A stretch of DNA of 64,000 nucleotides from Roseococcus sp. SDR (GTDB taxonomy: Bacteria; Pseudomonadota; Alphaproteobacteria; Acetobacterales; Acetobacteraceae): the NCBI RefSeq assembly GCF_019083995.1, contig NZ_JAHRCU010000017.1:1-64000 (forward strand). Reading direction: 5' to 3'. Both the position numbers and the translations under genes were made by a program. How positions within the stretch are numbered: the stretch's first letter is position 1; each line of letters starts with the position of its first letter. This document shows positions 3,685 to 56,531 of the stretch, one piece after another. Below the pieces are notes generated by a model. It was given only the letters and a program-made list of their open reading frames with translations. It had not been told where the DNA came from and searched no databases.

Positions 3685-5712
3685 ATGGCACAGGGCGTCA
3701 GCGACGCTTCGGAAGCCGAGGATTTCGACGGCTTCTACGAATTCGCCTGGCAGGTCCCGCAGGAGCTGACGGAGGAGGCTGCCGGCCCCTCCCCCTTCGT
3801 CACCTTCGGCTCGAAATGGGGAACCTCCCAGGCCGTCGGCACGCCGGGCGGGACCGTGACCTGGAGCCTGGTCGGCGCCGGGGTCACCACCACCTCCTTC
3901 GGCTTCTACGCCGGGGCCAGCGTCGCGCTCAGCGGCTTCCTGGGCTTTGACTTCGTCGGTGTCCTCAACCGCGCCTTCGCGGCCTGGTCGGCCATCGCGA
4001 ACATCAACTTCGTGCAGGTCTTCGATGGAGGCGGCGCGGTGGGCCGCGGCACCACGGGCAGCATCCGCATCGCGGGCGGCTATATCGACGGCGATTCCGA
4101 CACGCTCGCACAGGCCTTCTCCCCAGGCTCCAGCGCCATCAGCGGCGACATCGTGTTCGACAGTTCCGAGATCGATTTCTGGAATGCGGACAGCTTCCTC
4201 GCCGTGGCGACGCATGAGATCGGCCACGCGATCGGGCTGAACCACACCGCCATTCCCAACCAGCTGATGAACGCCTCCTACAACCCGGCGATCAGCACGC
4301 CCCAGTCGGACGACATCGCGGGGGCGCGCCACATCTACGGCGCGAGCGATCTCTCGGCCCGCATCAGCGACGTGACGATCACCGAGCCGGATGCGGGCGT
4401 CACCATCATGGCCTTCACGGTGACGCGGGCCTCGACCGCGCTCGAGGCGACGGTGGATTTCCGCAGCCATGACGGCAGCGCCAGCGCGGGGCGGGACTAT
4501 GTGGCCGTGAGCGGCACGCTCTCCTTCGCCATGAGCGAGGCCTCGCGACGCATCGAGGTGCAGATCCTGGGCGACACCGCCCATGAGCGGAACGAGTGGT
4601 TCACGATCGAACTCACCCGCGCGACGGGTGGGGCGACGATCGCGGATGCGGTGGGCATCGGTGTCATCACCGACAATGACCCGCCCTTCACCACCGCCAA
4701 TCTCTGGCTGGCCGGCTTCGGCACGCAGGGGAGCTGGGCCAGCAACAATCTGACGCCGCGCCGCCTCGCCGATGTGAATGGTGATGGCATGGCCGACATC
4801 GTGGGCTTCGCGCATGGCGGTGTCGTCGTCTCGCTCGCCGCCGGCGGGGGCACCTTCGGCCCGGCGCGGCGCGCCGTCGAGGGTTTCGGCGTGAATGGCG
4901 GCTGGCTCAGCGATTCCCTGACCCCGCGGCAGCTGGCCGATGTGGATGGTGACGGGCGGGCCGACATCGTGGGCTTCGCCCATGGCGGCGTCGTCGTCTC
5001 GCTGGCCGATGGCGCGGGCGGCTTCGGTGCGGCGCGGCTCGCCGTCGCGGGCTTCGGCGTGAATGGCGGCTGGGCCAATGACAACCTGACGCCGCGCCAC
5101 CTGGCCGACGTGAATGGCGACGGCATGGCCGACATCCTGGGGTTCGGCAGCGCGGGCGTCTATGTCTCGCTGGCGACCGGCGGCGGGGGCTTCGGCGCGG
5201 CGCGGCTGGCGGTGACGGGCTTTGGCCTCAATGGCGGCTGGTTGAGCGACGATGCCGCGCCGCGTCGCCTCGCCGATGTGAATGGCGATGGCATGGCCGA
5301 TATCCTGGGCTTCGGCGGTGCCGGGGTCTATGTCTCGCTCGCCACCGGGGGCGGGAGTTTCGGCGCGGCGTCGCTGCGCCTCGGCGCCTTCGGCTCGAAC
5401 CCGGCGGCGGGCGGCTGGACCTCGGATGACGCCACGCCGCGCGGGCTGGGCGATGTGAATGGCGACGGCATGGCCGACATCGTGGGCTTCGGCGGCGCCG
5501 GGGCCTTCGTCGCGCTGGCGAGCGGCGCGGGCGGCTTCGAGGCGGCGGAGCTGCGGCTCAGCGCCCTCGGCTCCGCCGCGGCGGCGGGCGGCTGGCGCAG
5601 CGACGACATCTTCCCGCGCTTCGTCGCCGACACCAATGGCGATGGCCTGGCCGACCTGCACGGCCTCGGCCATCTCGGCCTCTACAGCGCCTTTTCGAAC
5701 TATCCGCTCTGA
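3685..5712 (+). CDS. Matrixin-like metalloprotease with Calx-beta domain and VCBS/FG-GAP repeats
   Basis: 675 residues. The zinc site HEIGHAIGLNH places ligands at H177, H181 and H187 with E178 as catalytic base; LMNASY about 10 residues on is a plausible Met-turn, so this is a metzincin of the matrixin type. A Calx-beta domain follows (about residues 230-330, with SAGRDYVAVSGTL and ending ITDNDPP). The rest is six copies of a repeat containing DVNGDGMAD, with calcium-binding-style DxNxDGxxD loops. The repeat starts at 4771, 4939, 5107, 5275, 5452 and 5629, so the DNA period is 168,168,168,177,177 bp. There is no classical signal peptide and no GGxGxD nonapeptide tract, so export is presumably by a type I or other route (inference). 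The RBS is GGGAGG upstream of 3685. Confidence 0.8.
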   Translation: MAQGVSDASEAEDFDGFYEFAWQVPQELTEEAAGPSPFVTFGSKWGTSQAVGTPGGTVTWSLVGAGVTTTSFGFYAGASVALSGFLGFDFVGVLNRAFAAWSAIANINFVQVFDGGGAVGRGTTGSIRIAGGYIDGDSDTLAQAFSPGSSAISGDIVFDSSEIDFWNADSFLAVATHEIGHAIGLNHTAIPNQLMNASYNPAISTPQSDDIAGARHIYGASDLSARISDVTITEPDAGVTIMAFTVTRASTALEATVDFRSHDGSASAGRDYVAVSGTLSFAMSEASRRIEVQILGDTAHERNEWFTIELTRATGGATIADAVGIGVITDNDPPFTTANLWLAGFGTQGSWASNNLTPRRLADVNGDGMADIVGFAHGGVVVSLAAGGGTFGPARRAVEGFGVNGGWLSDSLTPRQLADVDGDGRADIVGFAHGGVVVSLADGAGGFGAARLAVAGFGVNGGWANDNLTPRHLADVNGDGMADILGFGSAGVYVSLATGGGGFGAARLAVTGFGLNGGWLSDDAAPRRLADVNGDGMADILGFGGAGVYVSLATGGGSFGAASLRLGAFGSNPAAGGWTSDDATPRGLGDVNGDGMADIVGFGGAGAFVALASGAGGFEAAELRLSALGSAAAAGGWRSDDIFPRFVADTNGDGLADLHGLGHLGLYSAFSNYPL

Positions 5713-25822: not shown

Positions 25823-25899
25823 TGGTCGGAGTGAGAGGATTCGAACCTCCGGCCCCCGCGTCCCGAACACGGTGCTCTACCAGGCTGAGCTACACTCCG
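25823..25899 (-). tRNA. tRNA-Pro (anticodon CGG)
   Basis: 77 nt with encoded CCA at 25823-25825. Acceptor stem CGGAGTG/CACTCCG plus discriminator A, D-arm GCTC...GAGC, anticodon stem CCGTG/CGCGG with loop TTCGGGA (anticodon CGG at loop positions 3-5), T-loop TTCGAAT. Reads CCG, a heavily used proline codon in this GC-rich genome. Confidence 0.95.
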
Positions 25900-33319: not shown

Positions 33320-33480
33320 GACGGGCGAGGCTGCCCGGTGCGTCAGGTACAGACATCCCCAGGGCCAATACGCAACTCCCGGGAACTGGCGCTGGCCGGG
33401 CCGAGGTCCGGCTATCTGGTGCCCACCTGCTTATGGCAGGCCTTGGGAGGATGCAGACGCCAACGGCCAGGGCGGCTTCG
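33320..33480 (+). ncRNA. ssrS: 6S RNA (probable)
   Basis: About 160 nt, ends approximate. It can fold as one long rod with an open centre, as 6S RNA does. GAGGCTGCCC (33327-33336) pairs with GGGCGGCTTC (33470-33479); GCGTC (33340-33344) with GACGC (33456-33460); CATCC with GGATG; CCAGGGCC with GGCCTTGGG. The distal part has a GCCGG...CCGGC hairpin. Location between zapA and fau is the conserved alphaproteobacterial position of ssrS. 6S RNA binds sigma-70 RNA polymerase in stationary phase. Confidence 0.72.
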
Positions 33481-33542
33481 CACTCACGCCCCGCCGGGGG
33501 GCTCGCAAGGCGAGCCCCCCGGCGGGGCGTGAGTGCATTTTT
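33481..33542 (+). terminator. Rho-independent terminator with 26-bp perfect stem
   Basis: Left arm 33481-33506 and right arm 33510-33535 are perfectly complementary over 26 bp around a 3-nt AAG loop, followed by CATTTTT. It directly follows the 6S RNA and should end its transcript. Confidence 0.85.
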
Positions 33543-44646: not shown

Positions 44647-47600
44647 ATGCCCGATGACGCCTTCCCCATGGGCGCGCCCGACCATGATGTGGCGCTGCTC
44701 GACGCCCTCTTCGCCCTGCCCGACGCCGCCTTCCTCGACCTGGACGGAGAGGGCCGAATCCGCCGCCTCGCGCCCGGCTTCGCGAGCCTGCTGCGTGCCC
44801 CACCCGCCGCCCCGGGCGCGTCACTGGCCGATTGGCTGGAGGGGCTGCTGGCGGCCGGCCTCTTCGCCATGCCCCTGGCGCTGCCGCACCTGCTGGCGCC
44901 CTTCCAGGCACCGGCGGGCGGCACCGCCCGCTGGGCCCGCGCCGATGGTCGCGCGATGCACCTCACCGTCCAGGCGCTGCCGGGCGGCGGGCGCCTCGCC
45001 CGGCTCGCGCAGATCAGGGCCGACGAGGAGTCGGCGCATGAGCTGCTGCGCAGCGCCTATCTGCTGGAGAACGTGACCGATGCCGTCGTGCTGATGGACG
45101 CCGATGGCACCATCCTCGACAACTCCACCGGCCGCGGCGACCTGCTGGGCCTGCCGGACGAACTGGTGAAGCCCGGCCATACCCACCAGGACATCCTGCG
45201 CTTCATGCACCGGCGGGGCGATTACGGCTTCGAGCAGAGCGAGGACGAGTTCGTGGCCCAGCGCCGCGCCATGATCCTCGCCGCCGGCCGCTTCACCCTG
45301 CCGAGCCGCATGCCCGACGGCCGCTGGGCCGAATACAATTTCCGCCCGCTGCCCAATGGCGACCTCCTGATCCTGGTGCGTGACGTGACCGAGCTGCGCA
45401 ACGCCCTGGCCGCGCTGGAGGCCGAGCGCGCCGAGCGCGAGGAGGAACGCCGCCGCGCCACGCTGCTGCTGGAGAGCACCGAGGACGCCATCCTGCTCTT
45501 CGATGCGAAGGGCGTGCTGCTCGAGACCTCGCGCAACGTGGATGACCTCTACGACCTGCCGCCCGAGCTCTTCGCGCGCGGTGCCACGCATGAGGGGCTG
45601 CTGCGCGCCGTCCATCGCCGCGGCGACCACGGCTTCGAGGAGACGGAGGAGCAGTTCGTCGGCCGCATCCGCCACGTCGTCTCCAAGCCCGGCCGCCGCC
45701 AGGTGGTGCGCGTGCTGCCAAATGGCCGCTGGGTCGAAGTCACGATGGACACGCGGCCAGACCTCTCGCTGCTCATCAATGTGCGCGACGTCACCGGGCT
45801 CAAGAAGGTGCAGCTCGCCCTCGAATCGGAGCAGCAGAAGCTGCGCCGCGTCATGGACAACATGCGCGACGGCGTCATGCTCTTCGACGACGAGCTCCGC
45901 TGGACCCTGGTCAGCGAGCCGATCAAGCGCTTCTTCGACCTGCCCGCGCATTACGGCGTGGGCACCAGCCTGCGCGAGGTGACGCGCTTCCAGACCCTGC
46001 GCGGCGATTTCGGCCCGGTGCCCGAGACGGAGGAGGCGCTGGCCGAGGCCATCGAAGGCCGCATCAGCGGCCTGCTCGACCCCGGCGGCCGGCGCTATGT
46101 CCGCAAGACGGCCAATGGCTACTGGCTCGACATCCGCATGCAGCCGCTGCCCGATGGCGGGCTGCTCGCCTTCTACCGCGACGTGACCCTGCTGAAGCAG
46201 CAGGAGGAGCAGGTGGAGGCCGAGCGGCATCTCCTGCTCGAGATCCTGAACGGCCTGGATGAGGCGGTGGTCCTGCTGGGGCCGGACCAGTCCATCCTCG
46301 CGAGCAATGCGCGCGGCTCGGACTTCCTGCCGGAACGGCCAGAGCTGCTGGCCCCTGGCGGCAGCATGCGCGAGGTGCTGCGCCACCTCCATCGCCGCGG
46401 CGAATACGGCACGGATCTCGACGAGGAGGCGCGCATCACCGAGCGCCTCGCCTTCATCACCGACCCCGCCGGCCAGCGCTACACCCGCCCCTCCACCGAT
46501 GGGCGCTGGGTGGAGTTCCAGTACACGCCGCTCTCCGGCGGGCGCACGCTCATGCAGGCGCGCGACGTGACACCGCTGAAGCGCGGCGAGGCGGAGGTGG
46601 AGGAGCAGCGCGCCCTGCTGGCCGAGGTGCTGAACTCCATGGACGCCATGGTCGTCCTGCTCGATTCCACCTCGCGCGTCATCATGTCGAACGGGCGCGG
46701 GCGGAACCTGCTCGATATCCCGGCCGAGCTGGTGGATGAGGGCGGCTCGCTGCGCGAATCCATGCGCTACATGTACCGCCGCGGCGATTTCGGCTTCGAC
46801 CAGCCGGAGGAGCATTGGGTGGATGGCCGCGTGAACGCCGTCCTCGCCGGCAAGCCCGTGCGCTTCACCCGCCCCGCGCCGGGCGATCGCTGGCTCGAAT
46901 TCAGCTACAGCCCGATCGGCAAGGGCCGCATCATCGCGCAAGGCCGCGACGTGACGGCGCTCAAGGCCAGCGAACAGGCGGCGATCGCGGCGAAGGAGGC
47001 GGCGGAGGCGGCAGCACTCGCCAAGTCCAGCTTCCTCGCCGCCATGAGCCACGAGATCCGCACGCCGATGAACGGCGTGCTCGGCATGCTCGAAGTGCTC
47101 GGCCGCTCCGAGCTGAAGCCCGAGCAGGCGCGCAGCGTCACCGTGATGCGCGAGAGTGCCCATTCCCTGCTGCGCATCATCGACGACGTGCTGGACTTCT
47201 CGAAGATCGAGGCCGGGCGGCTCGATGTGGAGAGCATGCCCTTCAGCCTGCGCGCCATGGTGGAAGGCACGATCGAGACGCTGACCCCCGAAGCGAAGCG
47301 CCGTGGCCTCGCCCTCTTCGCCGATGCCCAGGGCCCGGGACCGGACTGGCTCGAGGGGGACCCGACGCGCGTGCGGCAGATCCTCTTCAACCTGGTCGGC
47401 AATGCGCTGAAATTCACCGAGCGCGGCTTCGTGCGCATCTCGGCCCAGGCGGAGGCGCAGGCCAAGGGTGCCCTGCTGACGCTGATCGTGGAGGATAGCG
47501 GCCTCGGCATGGACGAGCCGACGCTCGCGCGCCTCTTCCAGCCCTTCACCCAGGCCGACAGCTCCACCACGCGGCGCTTCGGCGGCACGGGCCTCGGCCT

Positions 47601-48504
47601 CTCCATCGTCCGCCGCCTGGCCGAGCTCATGGGCGGCGAGGTGCGTGCCGAGAGCCAGCCCGGTCGCGGCAGCCGCTTTACGGTCACGCTGCTTCTCGGC
47701 ATCGCGGCCGCGCCCGAGGTGCTGAGCGCCATTGCCCGCAGCGCGGCCCCCGCGCCCGCCCCCACGCCCGGGGGCGCGGGCGGCGTGCTGGTGGTGGATG
47801 ACCACCCGGTCAACCGCGAGGTGATGCTGCGCCAGCTTGAGCTGCTCGGCCTCACCGCGCAGACGGCGGTGGACGGCGCGGATGCCCTGGCCCGCTGGCG
47901 GGAGGAGCGGCAATCCATCGTGCTGCTCGACATCCACATGCCGGTGATGGACGGCTTCGAGCTGGCGCGCGCCATCCGCGCCGAGGAGCAGCGCGCGGGG
48001 CTCTCGCGCACCACGCTCATCGCCGTCACCGCCAATGCGCTGAAGGGCGAGGCGGAGCGCTGCTACGCGGCTGGCATGGACGGCTTCCTGGCCAAGCCGC
48101 TGCACCTCGATGGCCTCTCCCGCGCGCTCTCGCGCTTCGTGCCGGCGCTGACGACCGAAGGCGCCGCGCAGGGCGGCGCGCTGTTTGACCCCGAGGCGCT
48201 GCGCGGCCTCTTCGGCCAGGATCGCGCGCGGCTTTCCAGCATCCTGGAGAGCTTCGCCGAGCAGGCGCGCCACGACATCTCGGCGATGCAGGGCGCGGAG
48301 ACGGCCGCACTTGGCCAGGCGGCGCATCGCCTGAAGGGTGCCGCCCGCATGGTGGGCGCCCGCCTCTTGGCCGAGCAGGCCCAGGCGGTGGAAAGCGCGG
48401 TGAAGGCCGGGGAGGAGGAGACGGCCCGCGCCGCCGCCGCGACACTGGAGCGCCTGCTGGGCGAGACGCTGGAGGTGGCGCGCCCGCTGCTCGACGCCAC
48501 CTAG
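44647..48504 (+). CDS. Hybrid histidine kinase with five tandem PAS_7-type domains
   Basis: 1285 residues, no membrane helix, so cytosolic. After a divergent N-terminal PAS-like segment (1-130), five related PAS repeats start near residues 132, 272, 397, 528 and 657; four carry HRRGDxGF-type blocks. HisKA follows with His802 (MSHEIRTPMNG), then HATPase (GNALKFTERG, EDSGLGMDE, GTGLGLSIVRRL), a receiver with Asp1095 (IVLLDIHMPVMDG), and an Hpt domain with HRLKGAARMVGA. The TAG stop overlaps the first base of a 196-bp repeat element. Complete phosphorelay in one chain; the ligand is unknown. Confidence 0.9.
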   Translation: MPDDAFPMGAPDHDVALLDALFALPDAAFLDLDGEGRIRRLAPGFASLLRAPPAAPGASLADWLEGLLAAGLFAMPLALPHLLAPFQAPAGGTARWARADGRAMHLTVQALPGGGRLARLAQIRADEESAHELLRSAYLLENVTDAVVLMDADGTILDNSTGRGDLLGLPDELVKPGHTHQDILRFMHRRGDYGFEQSEDEFVAQRRAMILAAGRFTLPSRMPDGRWAEYNFRPLPNGDLLILVRDVTELRNALAALEAERAEREEERRRATLLLESTEDAILLFDAKGVLLETSRNVDDLYDLPPELFARGATHEGLLRAVHRRGDHGFEETEEQFVGRIRHVVSKPGRRQVVRVLPNGRWVEVTMDTRPDLSLLINVRDVTGLKKVQLALESEQQKLRRVMDNMRDGVMLFDDELRWTLVSEPIKRFFDLPAHYGVGTSLREVTRFQTLRGDFGPVPETEEALAEAIEGRISGLLDPGGRRYVRKTANGYWLDIRMQPLPDGGLLAFYRDVTLLKQQEEQVEAERHLLLEILNGLDEAVVLLGPDQSILASNARGSDFLPERPELLAPGGSMREVLRHLHRRGEYGTDLDEEARITERLAFITDPAGQRYTRPSTDGRWVEFQYTPLSGGRTLMQARDVTPLKRGEAEVEEQRALLAEVLNSMDAMVVLLDSTSRVIMSNGRGRNLLDIPAELVDEGGSLRESMRYMYRRGDFGFDQPEEHWVDGRVNAVLAGKPVRFTRPAPGDRWLEFSYSPIGKGRIIAQGRDVTALKASEQAAIAAKEAAEAAALAKSSFLAAMSHEIRTPMNGVLGMLEVLGRSELKPEQARSVTVMRESAHSLLRIIDDVLDFSKIEAGRLDVESMPFSLRAMVEGTIETLTPEAKRRGLALFADAQGPGPDWLEGDPTRVRQILFNLVGNALKFTERGFVRISAQAEAQAKGALLTLIVEDSGLGMDEPTLARLFQPFTQADSSTTRRFGGTGLGLSIVRRLAELMGGEVRAESQPGRGSRFTVTLLLGIAAAPEVLSAIARSAAPAPAPTPGGAGGVLVVDDHPVNREVMLRQLELLGLTAQTAVDGADALARWREERQSIVLLDIHMPVMDGFELARAIRAEEQRAGLSRTTLIAVTANALKGEAERCYAAGMDGFLAKPLHLDGLSRALSRFVPALTTEGAAQGGALFDPEALRGLFGQDRARLSSILESFAEQARHDISAMQGAETAALGQAAHRLKGAARMVGARLLAEQAQAVESAVKAGEEETARAAAATLERLLGETLEVARPLLDAT

Positions 48505-48699
48505 CAGGCTGCTGAAAAACTCCGCGGTGGGACCGAGGGGCCAGCCCCTCGGACACCCCGGCAAGAACCTCAGCTTCTTGCATCTCCGATAAGTATTTGA
48601 TTTAATTTAACAATTGAAGATCCAAGAAACTGAGTTTCTTGGCGGGAGAGTACGAGAGGGCGGAGCCCTTTCGTCTTTTGGCCTTTTTCAGCAGCCGGG
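48504..48699. mobile_element. 196-bp MITE-like element, copy A
   Basis: Begins GCAGGCTGCTGAAAAA and ends TTTTTCAGCAGCCGGG; the right terminal repeat has two mismatches. Flanked by CTA at 48501-48503 and 48700-48702 (CTAG on both sides), a target duplication like those of IS5-type elements. Internal stems: CCGAGGGG/CCCCTCGG (48533-48552) and CCAAGAAAC/GTTTCTTGG (48622-48642). The AT-rich core (TTTGATTTAATTTAAC) stands out. No coding capacity. Differs from copy B at three positions. Confidence 0.85.
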
Positions 48700-48703
48700 C
48701 TAG

Positions 48704-48850
48704 AGCCTTTTCCGTTCACCTCGGCTCGCTGCAAAGGCTCCAGGCATCTGTATTCGCCAGCATCTTCACCCGATCAGATGACGCCATCTGATCGGGATCT
48801 GCTCTGGAGTCTGATCGCCTTTGGTGCGTTCACCGACGCGGTGAACCATC
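48704..48850. other. Palindrome-rich intergenic segment
   Basis: Three separate stems follow copy A: GAGCCTTT (48704-48711)/AAAGGCTC (48733-48740), CCCGATCAGATG (48769-48780)/CATCTGATCGGG (48785-48796, 12 bp perfect, 4-nt loop), and GTTCACC (48828-48834)/GGTGAAC (48840-48846). No ORF of note. It may be a structured RNA, a repeat or terminator DNA. The gap continues to 48920 without further signals. Confidence 0.5.
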
Positions 48851-48920: not shown

Positions 48921-49388
<468 letters not shown>

Positions 49389-55243: not shown

Positions 55244-55633
55244 ATGCGTCGCCTCTGCGTCCTGGCCCTCCTCGCGATCGGCGCGCCGGCCGCGGCGCAG
55301 CCCAGCTTCTCGCCCGCCCCGGGGCCGGCCTACCCGAACACGATCTGCGTCGTGAACAGCGTACCGGATGAGTTCTGGGCGGCCTTCGACACCCTCGCCC
55401 CGGGCCAGAACTGGGCGCCGGCCGTGGCGCTCAGGATCATCGGGCCGATGGCGCCCCAATGCATGTCCTTCGCCCCGGGGATCGCGGTCCGCCTGCGGGT
55501 GACGGTGGCGGTGCGTGCGGGCTCCGGGGCTTCCAGCTTCAACACGGTCTGCGTGCAGGTGCTGCAGCCGGCCCGCAGCGCGACGGTGAACATCACGGGC
55601 GCCCCGCAAGCAGCGGCCTGTTCCTTGTCCTAG
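55244..55633 (+). CDS. Secreted hypothetical protein ending in a MITE-like element
   Basis: 129 residues. Signal peptide MRRLCVLALLAIGAPAAAQP. Mature part is beta-rich, with four Cys (NTICVVN, APQCMSF, NTVCVQV, AAACSLS), probably two disulfides, and an Ala/Val repeat-like strand pattern. No family recognised. The final TAG uses T and A of the flanking DNA and G of the 196-bp element, so the native C terminus may have been altered by the insertion. Confidence 0.6.
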   Translation: MRRLCVLALLAIGAPAAAQPSFSPAPGPAYPNTICVVNSVPDEFWAAFDTLAPGQNWAPAVALRIIGPMAPQCMSFAPGIAVRLRVTVAVRAGSGASSFNTVCVQVLQPARSATVNITGAPQAAACSLS

Positions 55634-55828
55634 CAGGCTGCTGAAAAACTCCGCTGTGGGACCGAGGGGCCAGCCCCTCGGACACCCCGGCAAGAACCTC
55701 AGCTTCTTGCATCTCCGATAAGTATTTGATTTAATTTAACAATTGAAGATCCAAGAAACTGAGTTTCTTGGCGGGAGAGTACGAGAGGGCGGAGCCCTTT
55801 CGTCTTTTGGCCTTTTTCAGCAGCCTGC
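55633..55828. mobile_element. 196-bp MITE-like element, copy B
   Basis: Same length and orientation as copy A (48504-48699) and identical except for three bases. The terminal inverted repeats are perfect over 16 bp: GCAGGCTGCTGAAAAA and its complement at 55813-55828. CTA flanks the left end; the right flank is CAG, so a target duplication is not seen here. It sits between convergent genes and could also end transcription from both sides, since it carries AGGGC/GCCCT followed by TTTCGTCTTTT. Confidence 0.85.
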
Positions 55829-55841
55829 CAGGGCGGGCGGC

Positions 55842-56531
55842 TCAGCCGCCCGACGCCCGGCGATAGGCGTTCTCCACCTCGCTGATCAGCGCCTGGGATT
55901 GGCCCAGGACCAGCCCCTCCGGGCCGGGTGCCGCCAGCCCCTCGCGCGCCAGCGCGCCCAGGATGCGCGTCACCACCTCGCGCCGCGTGCCGATCCGCGC
56001 GGCCAGCTCGTGATGCGGGCGCGCGGGTGCGACGACCAGCCCCCCGCCCTCGGCCGGCCGGCTCATGCGCAGCAGCAGCGCGATCAGGCGCGGCCGGACG
56101 GGCAGCAGCATCAGCTCCATCAGCCGCGCCTCCCGCTCGCGCAATTGTGCGGCGAGCATCCGCATCACCTCATGCGAGGCTTCGGGCGTGGACAGCGCCG
56201 CCGCCAGGAAGGACGCCGCCGGCACCACGCAGACCCGCGCCGGCGTCAGCGCGACGAGGCCCAGCGTCGAAGGCCCGCCATCCAGCGCCGCCGCCTCGCC
56301 GAAGAACTCGCCATGGCGCAGCTCGTTCAGGATGATCTCGCGCCCCGCGGCGCCGTGCAGGATGATCCGCGCCACGCCGTCGGCGATGAAGACCACCTCC
56401 CGCGCGGGGGCGCCCGGCTCCACCAGCACCTCCCCCGGCTCGGCCTGCCGCCAATGGGCGGCGGCGGCGAGGGCGGCCAGCGCCTCGGCCGTCAGGGGCC
56501 GGAAAAGGGGGAAACGGGCCAGATCATCCAT
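55842..56531 (-). CDS. Crp/Fnr-family transcriptional regulator
   Basis: 229 residues. N-terminal cyclic-nucleotide-binding-fold domain (ARFPLFRPLTAEAL, ELRHGEFFGEAAALDGGPS), a dimer helix (about 115-145), and a C-terminal winged helix-turn-helix with HHELAARIGTRREVVTRILGAL. No Cys cluster for an Fe-S centre, so not an oxygen-sensing Fnr. Effector unknown. Divergent from parE. Confidence 0.88.
   Translation of the reverse strand: MDDLARFPLFRPLTAEALAALAAAAHWRQAEPGEVLVEPGAPAREVVFIADGVARIILHGAAGREIILNELRHGEFFGEAAALDGGPSTLGLVALTPARVCVVPAASFLAAALSTPEASHEVMRMLAAQLREREARLMELMLLPVRPRLIALLLRMSRPAEGGGLVVAPARPHHELAARIGTRREVVTRILGALAREGLAAPGPEGLVLGQSQALISEVENAYRRASGG

Follow-up and report, generated by a model that had tools for sequence, protein, structure and literature searches.

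The window, a stretch of 64,000 nucleotides of Roseococcus sp. SDR, carries two near-identical copies of a short element which, with a probability of roughly 0.87, belong to a non-autonomous MITE family bearing IS5-family ends, most probably those of the IS5 group, and were moved in trans into YTAR targets. It is a real IS5-type MITE family, recognised in outline by the original prediction. Its novelty lies in the interior, which holds a pair of hairpin units; this cargo is worth further study.

Copy A (48505-48699, 195 bp) and copy B (55634-55827, 194 bp, with perfect 15-bp ends) both lie on the forward strand, with the element boundaries CAGGCTGCTGAAAAA...TTTTTCAGCAGCCTG as given by the comparison of all copies. 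In the 196-bp coordinates of the original prediction the two copies have, as it stated, the same orientation and 193 of 196 identical bases, with mismatches at offsets 23, 194 and 196. The inverted repeats of copy B are perfect, as claimed, with a length of 15 bp in place of the 16 bp proposed, since the G and C at the outer edges are part of the duplicated target. In copy A the left terminal inverted repeat CAGGCTGCTGAAAAA is found at 48505-48519 on the forward strand and the right one, with one mismatch, at 48684-48698 on the reverse strand; this right end, described before as carrying two mismatches, is indeed imperfect, but through one substitution and one extra base. The expected target duplication of copy A is present and perfect, with CTAG at 48501-48504 and again at 48700-48703 (both forward strand), the left one including the TAG stop (48502-48504) of the gene at 44647-48504. 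For copy B the left CTAG (55630-55633, forward strand) includes the TAG stop (55631-55633) of an upstream ORF at 55244-55633, which encodes 129 amino acids and has no Pfam match, and the right duplication (55828-55831, forward strand) has decayed to CCAG with one mismatch. The element had been thought to start inside the stop codon and to complete it with its own G; a TAG stop is present at both copies, but the element starts one base later than claimed, both stops lie wholly within the left duplication and the element gives zero bases to either. Facing the copies on the reverse strand are convergent genes, an AhpC/TSA family gene (48921-49388) for copy A and a candidate Crp/Fnr regulator, identified by eye, for copy B (55842-56531). 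The interior, reported as AT-rich, is so relative to the host only (53% G+C in the element versus 70.7% in the host). The stable hairpins are confirmed by the RNA fold of copy B, with -100.5 kcal/mol and a z-score of -9.0 reached by none of 200 shuffles, much of this whole-strand strength being due to the element consisting of an inverted pair. A separate repeat of about 106 bp (window 48700-48806), starting with CTAGAGCC..., adjoins copy A, beginning at its right-hand CTAG, and has 87-88% identical copies at G000 C7:216152, C16:45272 and C5:164716 and 75-78% matches in the genus genomes G007, G008 and G012.

The host assembly that was searched has 5.0 Mb in 62 contigs, one of which ends inside a MITE copy. 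Ten copies (L001-L010) were found, nine near full-length and one partial, L010, which is cut off by the end of contig C18; a further locus, L011, was left out of the count as an 83% partial match without recognisable ends. The copies are 194-212 bp long, have no coding content, and share 92-100% pairwise identity in two subfamilies, one of which (L007-L009) has a common 18-bp hairpin insertion in arm 2. This near identity would imply recent movement. A perfect 4-bp YTAR duplication is present in six of the nine copies having both flanks, namely CTAG in L002, L004, L006 and L008, CTAA in L003 and TTAG in L005, and the other three (L001, L007 and L009) have a duplication with one mismatch, which in L009, whose left end is decayed, was read by eye. 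All 18 matches to the 15-bp end in the host genome, allowing up to one mismatch, fall inside MITE copies, and the same search with the 15-mer written backwards gave 0 matches. The alternative that the copies are a segmental duplication or a passive repeat, and not a mobile element, would suit the position of copies A and B 7.1 kb apart on one strand, but its chance is minute given ten copies that occur on both strands and over five contigs, duplications of 4 bp at unrelated flanks and matching insertion sequences; the original prediction, which would have accepted such a duplication for only two copies with no insertion sequence, was right to prefer mobility. A 2-bp TA target duplication is the mark of IS630-type elements; it was ruled out by CTAA/CTAA in L003 and TTAG/TTAG in L005, where all four bases are duplicated. 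A blastn search of the MITE against the plasmids of PLSDB gave no match.

The exact 15-mer is present in seven of 21 genomes of the genus. Several of these matches are cut off where their contigs end; in one such case, L083, a reading frame can be seen by eye to start beyond the match. The first 117 bp of the L083 element were matched in 6 of 249 genomes of the family. Complete insertion sequences were found in L088 (1330 bp, flanked by CTAG/CTAA, its left end differing at one base) and in L091 (about 1306 bp, flanked by ATAG/ATAG provided that the last base of the right end is taken as mutated), and the 1500 bp element L094, from the genome G017 of the same genus, is flanked by CTAG/CTAG and has the first 13 bases of the end identical. 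L091 and the contig-end fragments L083, L092 and L093 agree with the MITE end over at least 15 bp. The transposases carry the domains DUF772 and DDE_Tnp_1 and score against NF033581 (IS5 family, cut-off 140) with 262.7 bits for L091, 263.0 for L088 and 269.7 for the frame of L094; they also match the IS1182 model at 176-202 bits, below its cut-off of 270. An IS5-type transposase gene bounded by such ends, as had been foreseen, is found in L088, L091 and L094, and the view that the non-coding element needs a transposase in trans is supported by the ten copies, the YTAR duplications and these IS5-family elements, whose ends equal or closely match those of the MITE. The host assembly itself gave 0 matches to the partner transposase protein and 0 to NF033581, an absence which is weak evidence either way in an assembly broken into 62 contigs, and G017 holds both the L094 transposase and a MITE copy with a decayed left end.

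Within the IS5 family the partner is provisionally assigned to the IS5 group from its YTAR target and its size only. In PMC5493358 the IS5 target is given as Py-T-A-Pu, mostly CTAG, and in PMC3281130 at least three IS5/IS5 elements of 1282-1485 bp are listed with ends of 16-18 bp and repeats of 4 bp in two and 6 bp in one, together with an IS427-group element with 4-bp repeats. The MITE shares with the IS5 group this 4-bp Py-T-A-Pu duplication, mostly CTAG, and its partners share the 1.3-1.5 kb size and the NF033581 transposase; unlike IS5 elements the MITE has 194-212 bp and encodes nothing. The pair MITEAba12 and ISAba12, as described in PMC6382973, is similar in that the MITE is non-coding, has its ends in common with the insertion sequence and shows duplications of the type of that insertion sequence. 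There, however, the insertion sequence is co-resident and the duplications are of 9 bp, whereas here they are of 4 bp with no insertion sequence in the host assembly, and here the interior is a pair of hairpin units which also exist alone. A literature search with subscription journals mostly outside its scope found no published description of the MITE, and for its end sequence no transposon paper by title.

An IS5-type DDE transposase acting in trans would recognise the 15-bp ends, move or copy the segment of 194-212 bp, and insert it at YTAR with duplication of the YTAR. We infer from ends and duplications that such a transposase probably moved the host copies. An insertion at a stop codon would leave a stop on each side and should be harmless, so that it would be kept. 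The MITE was most likely born when IS5-type ends bracketed a pair of hairpin units, which it would now spread.

A flanking stop used inside the duplication was found, from gene calls, Pfam matches and reading frames, in eight of the ten copies (L001, L003, L004, L005, L007, L008, L009 and L010), with L001 counted on the basis of the 129-amino-acid ORF without Pfam match and L007 placed by Pfam through RibF on the left and a weak, below cut-off match on the right. In three of nine copies (L005, L007 and L009) a single YTAR is common to the stops of two convergent genes, and after insertion each gene retains its own stop; the right duplication copy of L009 is now TCAG. The exceptions, L002 and L006, lie at the CTAG edge of other intergenic palindromes, which are long and of the form CTAGAGC...GCTCTAG. 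In five of nine copies the right flank starts with AGC directly after the duplication. The placement on stop codons is mainly explained by the YTAR target, since YTAR contains TAA or TAG on both strands and its duplication restores a stop on either side. A separate mechanism of stop-codon seeking is unneeded given this target.

YTAR is rare in the G+C-rich host, with 424 sites in the 864 kb read, of which 71 are at called stops, 217 intergenic, 134 coding and 2 at edges; these 424 include the sites at MITE copies, which are omitted from the set of 251 non-coding sites used as a null, 60 of which are stops by strict gene calls. Whether stops are enriched beyond the target preference depends on the null chosen. 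With the same caller for copies and null, 6 of 10 copies are on stops (P 0.016), and the Pfam-aided reading of the copies (8/10) against the strict-call null gives P 0.0003; with a permissive null of ORFs of at least 100 codons, where 157 of 304 non-coding YTAR sites are on stops, the same 8/10 gives P 0.067 and the 3/9 shared stops P 0.035. In other taxa, among the matches listed and with up to three mismatches allowed in the ends, ORF stops hold 19 of 35 same-ended MITEs versus 333 of 1050 non-coding sites (P 0.005), while stops of both strands hold four of 35 versus 25 of 1050 (P 0.009). This sample is biased, as it covers the matches listed and GAGRGG was required near the end; 6 of the 41 were left out for their short flanks, and identical left flanks were counted once. 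We read the placement as the outcome of target choice and of tolerance, any further bias being modest at most. A testable rule for transposons gathering at gene ends would follow, in which a target that is a stop on both strands, and is duplicated, allows a scarless landing.

The loci orthologous to that of copy A in the sister species G015 and G019 gave no clean empty site. In both the orthologue of the gene upstream of copy A ends in TGA and the MITE is absent; G015 has 16 bp between the aligned flanks, with about 215 bp beyond the element missing too, and G019 has other DNA at the site. The left gene of copy B had no match in the sister genomes. This comparison is one of absence of the element and not of a clean empty site.

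The original prediction also saw in the element a terminator-like tract and, in its transport, a portable terminator. In a scan for intrinsic terminators, defined as a G+C-rich stem directly followed by a T tract, the tract is at chance level: one site came up, on the forward strand only, where shuffles give 0.7 (sd 1.1) and 0.5 (sd 0.8). A portable bidirectional terminator, which would owe its retention mainly to hairpins that end transcription between convergent genes, with copies selected at gene ends on that account, is doubtful. The eight copies on a flanking stop are in its favour, as are the three copies splitting a YTAR shared by two convergent stops, and by Pfam-aided reading convergent genes border seven of the nine copies having both flanks, versus 58 of 251 non-coding YTAR sites (P 0.0008). 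However, this null comes from a simple caller, with which five of nine copies are convergent (P 0.036), the convergent L001 and L007 each have one flanking gene with no or a weak Pfam match, L003 and L006 lie between co-directional genes, the permissive ORF null weakens both stop counts as given above, and convergent gaps tolerate insertions without any benefit; the terminator scan, with its one site on the forward strand only, stays at shuffle level. A precedent is offered by pneumococcus, where SPRITE, RUP and BOX are short interspersed repeats over-represented between convergent genes and SPRITE is terminator-like and near 3' ends, and is read likewise (PMC3049150); the likeness is by description, and the ends and duplications of the MITE point, unlike these repeats, to the IS5 family. 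A mobile bidirectional gene-end role, terminator-like in kind, is plausible from position only, and we infer for the cargo a possible effect as a terminator or on mRNA 3' ends. More speculative still, and improbable on present evidence, is a mobile gene-end kit in which the ends would target the shared stops of convergent genes, the duplication would give each gene a stop and the hairpins, in a pair of units typical of the genus, would supply a bidirectional transcript end; if it were true, the cargo would supply the transcript end that overlapping gene pairs lack.

Inside the MITE a covarying two-hairpin unit is present twice, once in each orientation, at 48527-48590 (arm 1, forward strand) and 48611-48677 (arm 2, inverted, reverse strand) in copy A and at 55656-55719 (forward) and 55740-55806 (inverted, reverse) in copy B. 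Both hairpins find support in 54 aligned units, where 96.2% of cells pair versus 83.2% in shuffles, with 137 doubly changed cells versus 49.5 and a covariation of 0.335 versus 0.133, none of these values being reached in 500 shuffles; since the units are paralogous and spread by copying, the covariation figures overstate selection. Two of the five measures are weaker, hardly or no better than shuffles, namely two-sided change in 10 pairs versus 8.4 (reached by 8/500) and 16 further pair types versus 17.6 (reached by 499/500). A covariance model of the unit has matches in all 21 genomes of the genus, from at least 1 to at least 143 per genome, the counts being lower bounds from the 150 candidates scored in each genome, with MITE arms included; the host genome has at least 88 matches, arms again included, and G006 at least 143. 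Rfam searches gave no match to the units in the window, where they found only a 6S RNA gene (33325-33482, forward strand) and a tRNA gene (25826-25899, reverse strand) elsewhere, and 0 matches over six loci with MITEs or bare units.

Units outside MITEs also gather at gene ends. In a non-random set of 41 bare clusters, which are loci similar to the MITE from several genomes and include L048 with its decayed ends, 23 are within 20 nt of a called stop and two more overlap a called gene end, versus 8.0% for positions placed at random in the called gaps of the host genome, which again favours the portable terminator. Among the 40 clusters that have both neighbours, divergent genes flank three, versus 129 of 518 gaps (P 0.005). 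These bare units may be decayed MITEs which have lost their ends, and not older repeats captured by the MITE. For such decay speak G006, which has an intact copy together with several partial matches of MITE length, and L048 in the same genome, which retains traces of both degenerate ends. This origin is nevertheless unlikely for the units in general, as they occur in 21/21 genus genomes and the exact end 15-mer, counting exact ends only, in 7/21, leaving 14/21 with unit matches and no exact 15-mer, and as the 23 of 41 bare clusters begin within 20 nt of the stop, whereas the MITE has about 28 bp from its target to the first hairpin. Some bare units could be MITE remnants, and the order of events is unproven.

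REP and BIME elements consist of palindromic units which stand in inverted pairs where genes end. The paired palindromic units at gene ends described here resemble BIMEs, but the reading as a classical REP/BIME, mobilised by a Y1 tyrosine transposase (RAYT), is highly improbable given the DDE-type ends and target duplications found instead. RAYT mobilisation was rejected on finding no PF01797 match in the host genome; this domain also had no match in 20 of the 21 genus genomes, the unit-rich G006 included, and matched in one. With an IS5-type MITE as the preferred reading, the element would link IS5-type MITEs with REP-like gene-end hairpins, repeats which in our impression are usually treated separately.

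Among the matches listed, Chloroflexi, Paracoccus, Deferrisomatales and others have MITEs of 141-249 bp which end in the same 15-mer and mostly show YTAR duplications. The 118 loci L193-L310, again among the matches listed, hold at least 41 MITEs that differ in their left flank, two of them in viral contigs, and the end-plus-stem pattern occurs in phages in two IMG/VR stretches. The interiors of these same-ended MITEs differ between several phyla and are often hairpin-rich (among the matches listed). The occurrence of the same 15-bp ends in several phyla would make the stop-target rule testable widely. By blastn of the window MITE against the 118 listed loci, similarity was found in two only: L257, with 48 bp similar at the end, and L276, a metagenome-assembled Rhodovarius crocodyli with the hairpin pair at 73-208 (76% over 138 bp) and, 5.5 kb from it, at 5687 onward, the same 15-bp end followed by the first hairpin. 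L276 is the sole named genome met with clear similarity to the MITE interior, and it suggests the Acetobacteraceae as the family of the host. In L193, a Terracidiphilus MAG, there are pairs with TAAA duplications instead of YTAR.

Two further observations concern the units themselves. The bare units L022 and L026 of the host and L039 of G015 are cut at the identical point of the first stem and all continue into one common foreign sequence, with GGTATAGTAAAGACCAGCCCCTC at the junction; the ORF lists of L022 and L039 show no obvious encoded protein explaining it. An extra hairpin GTGAAAACC..GGTTTTCAC is found inside the second unit stem in L007, L008, L009, L015, L032 and L048, with one variant base in L048. 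It recurs in the host genome and in G006, as a module that is gained and lost would.
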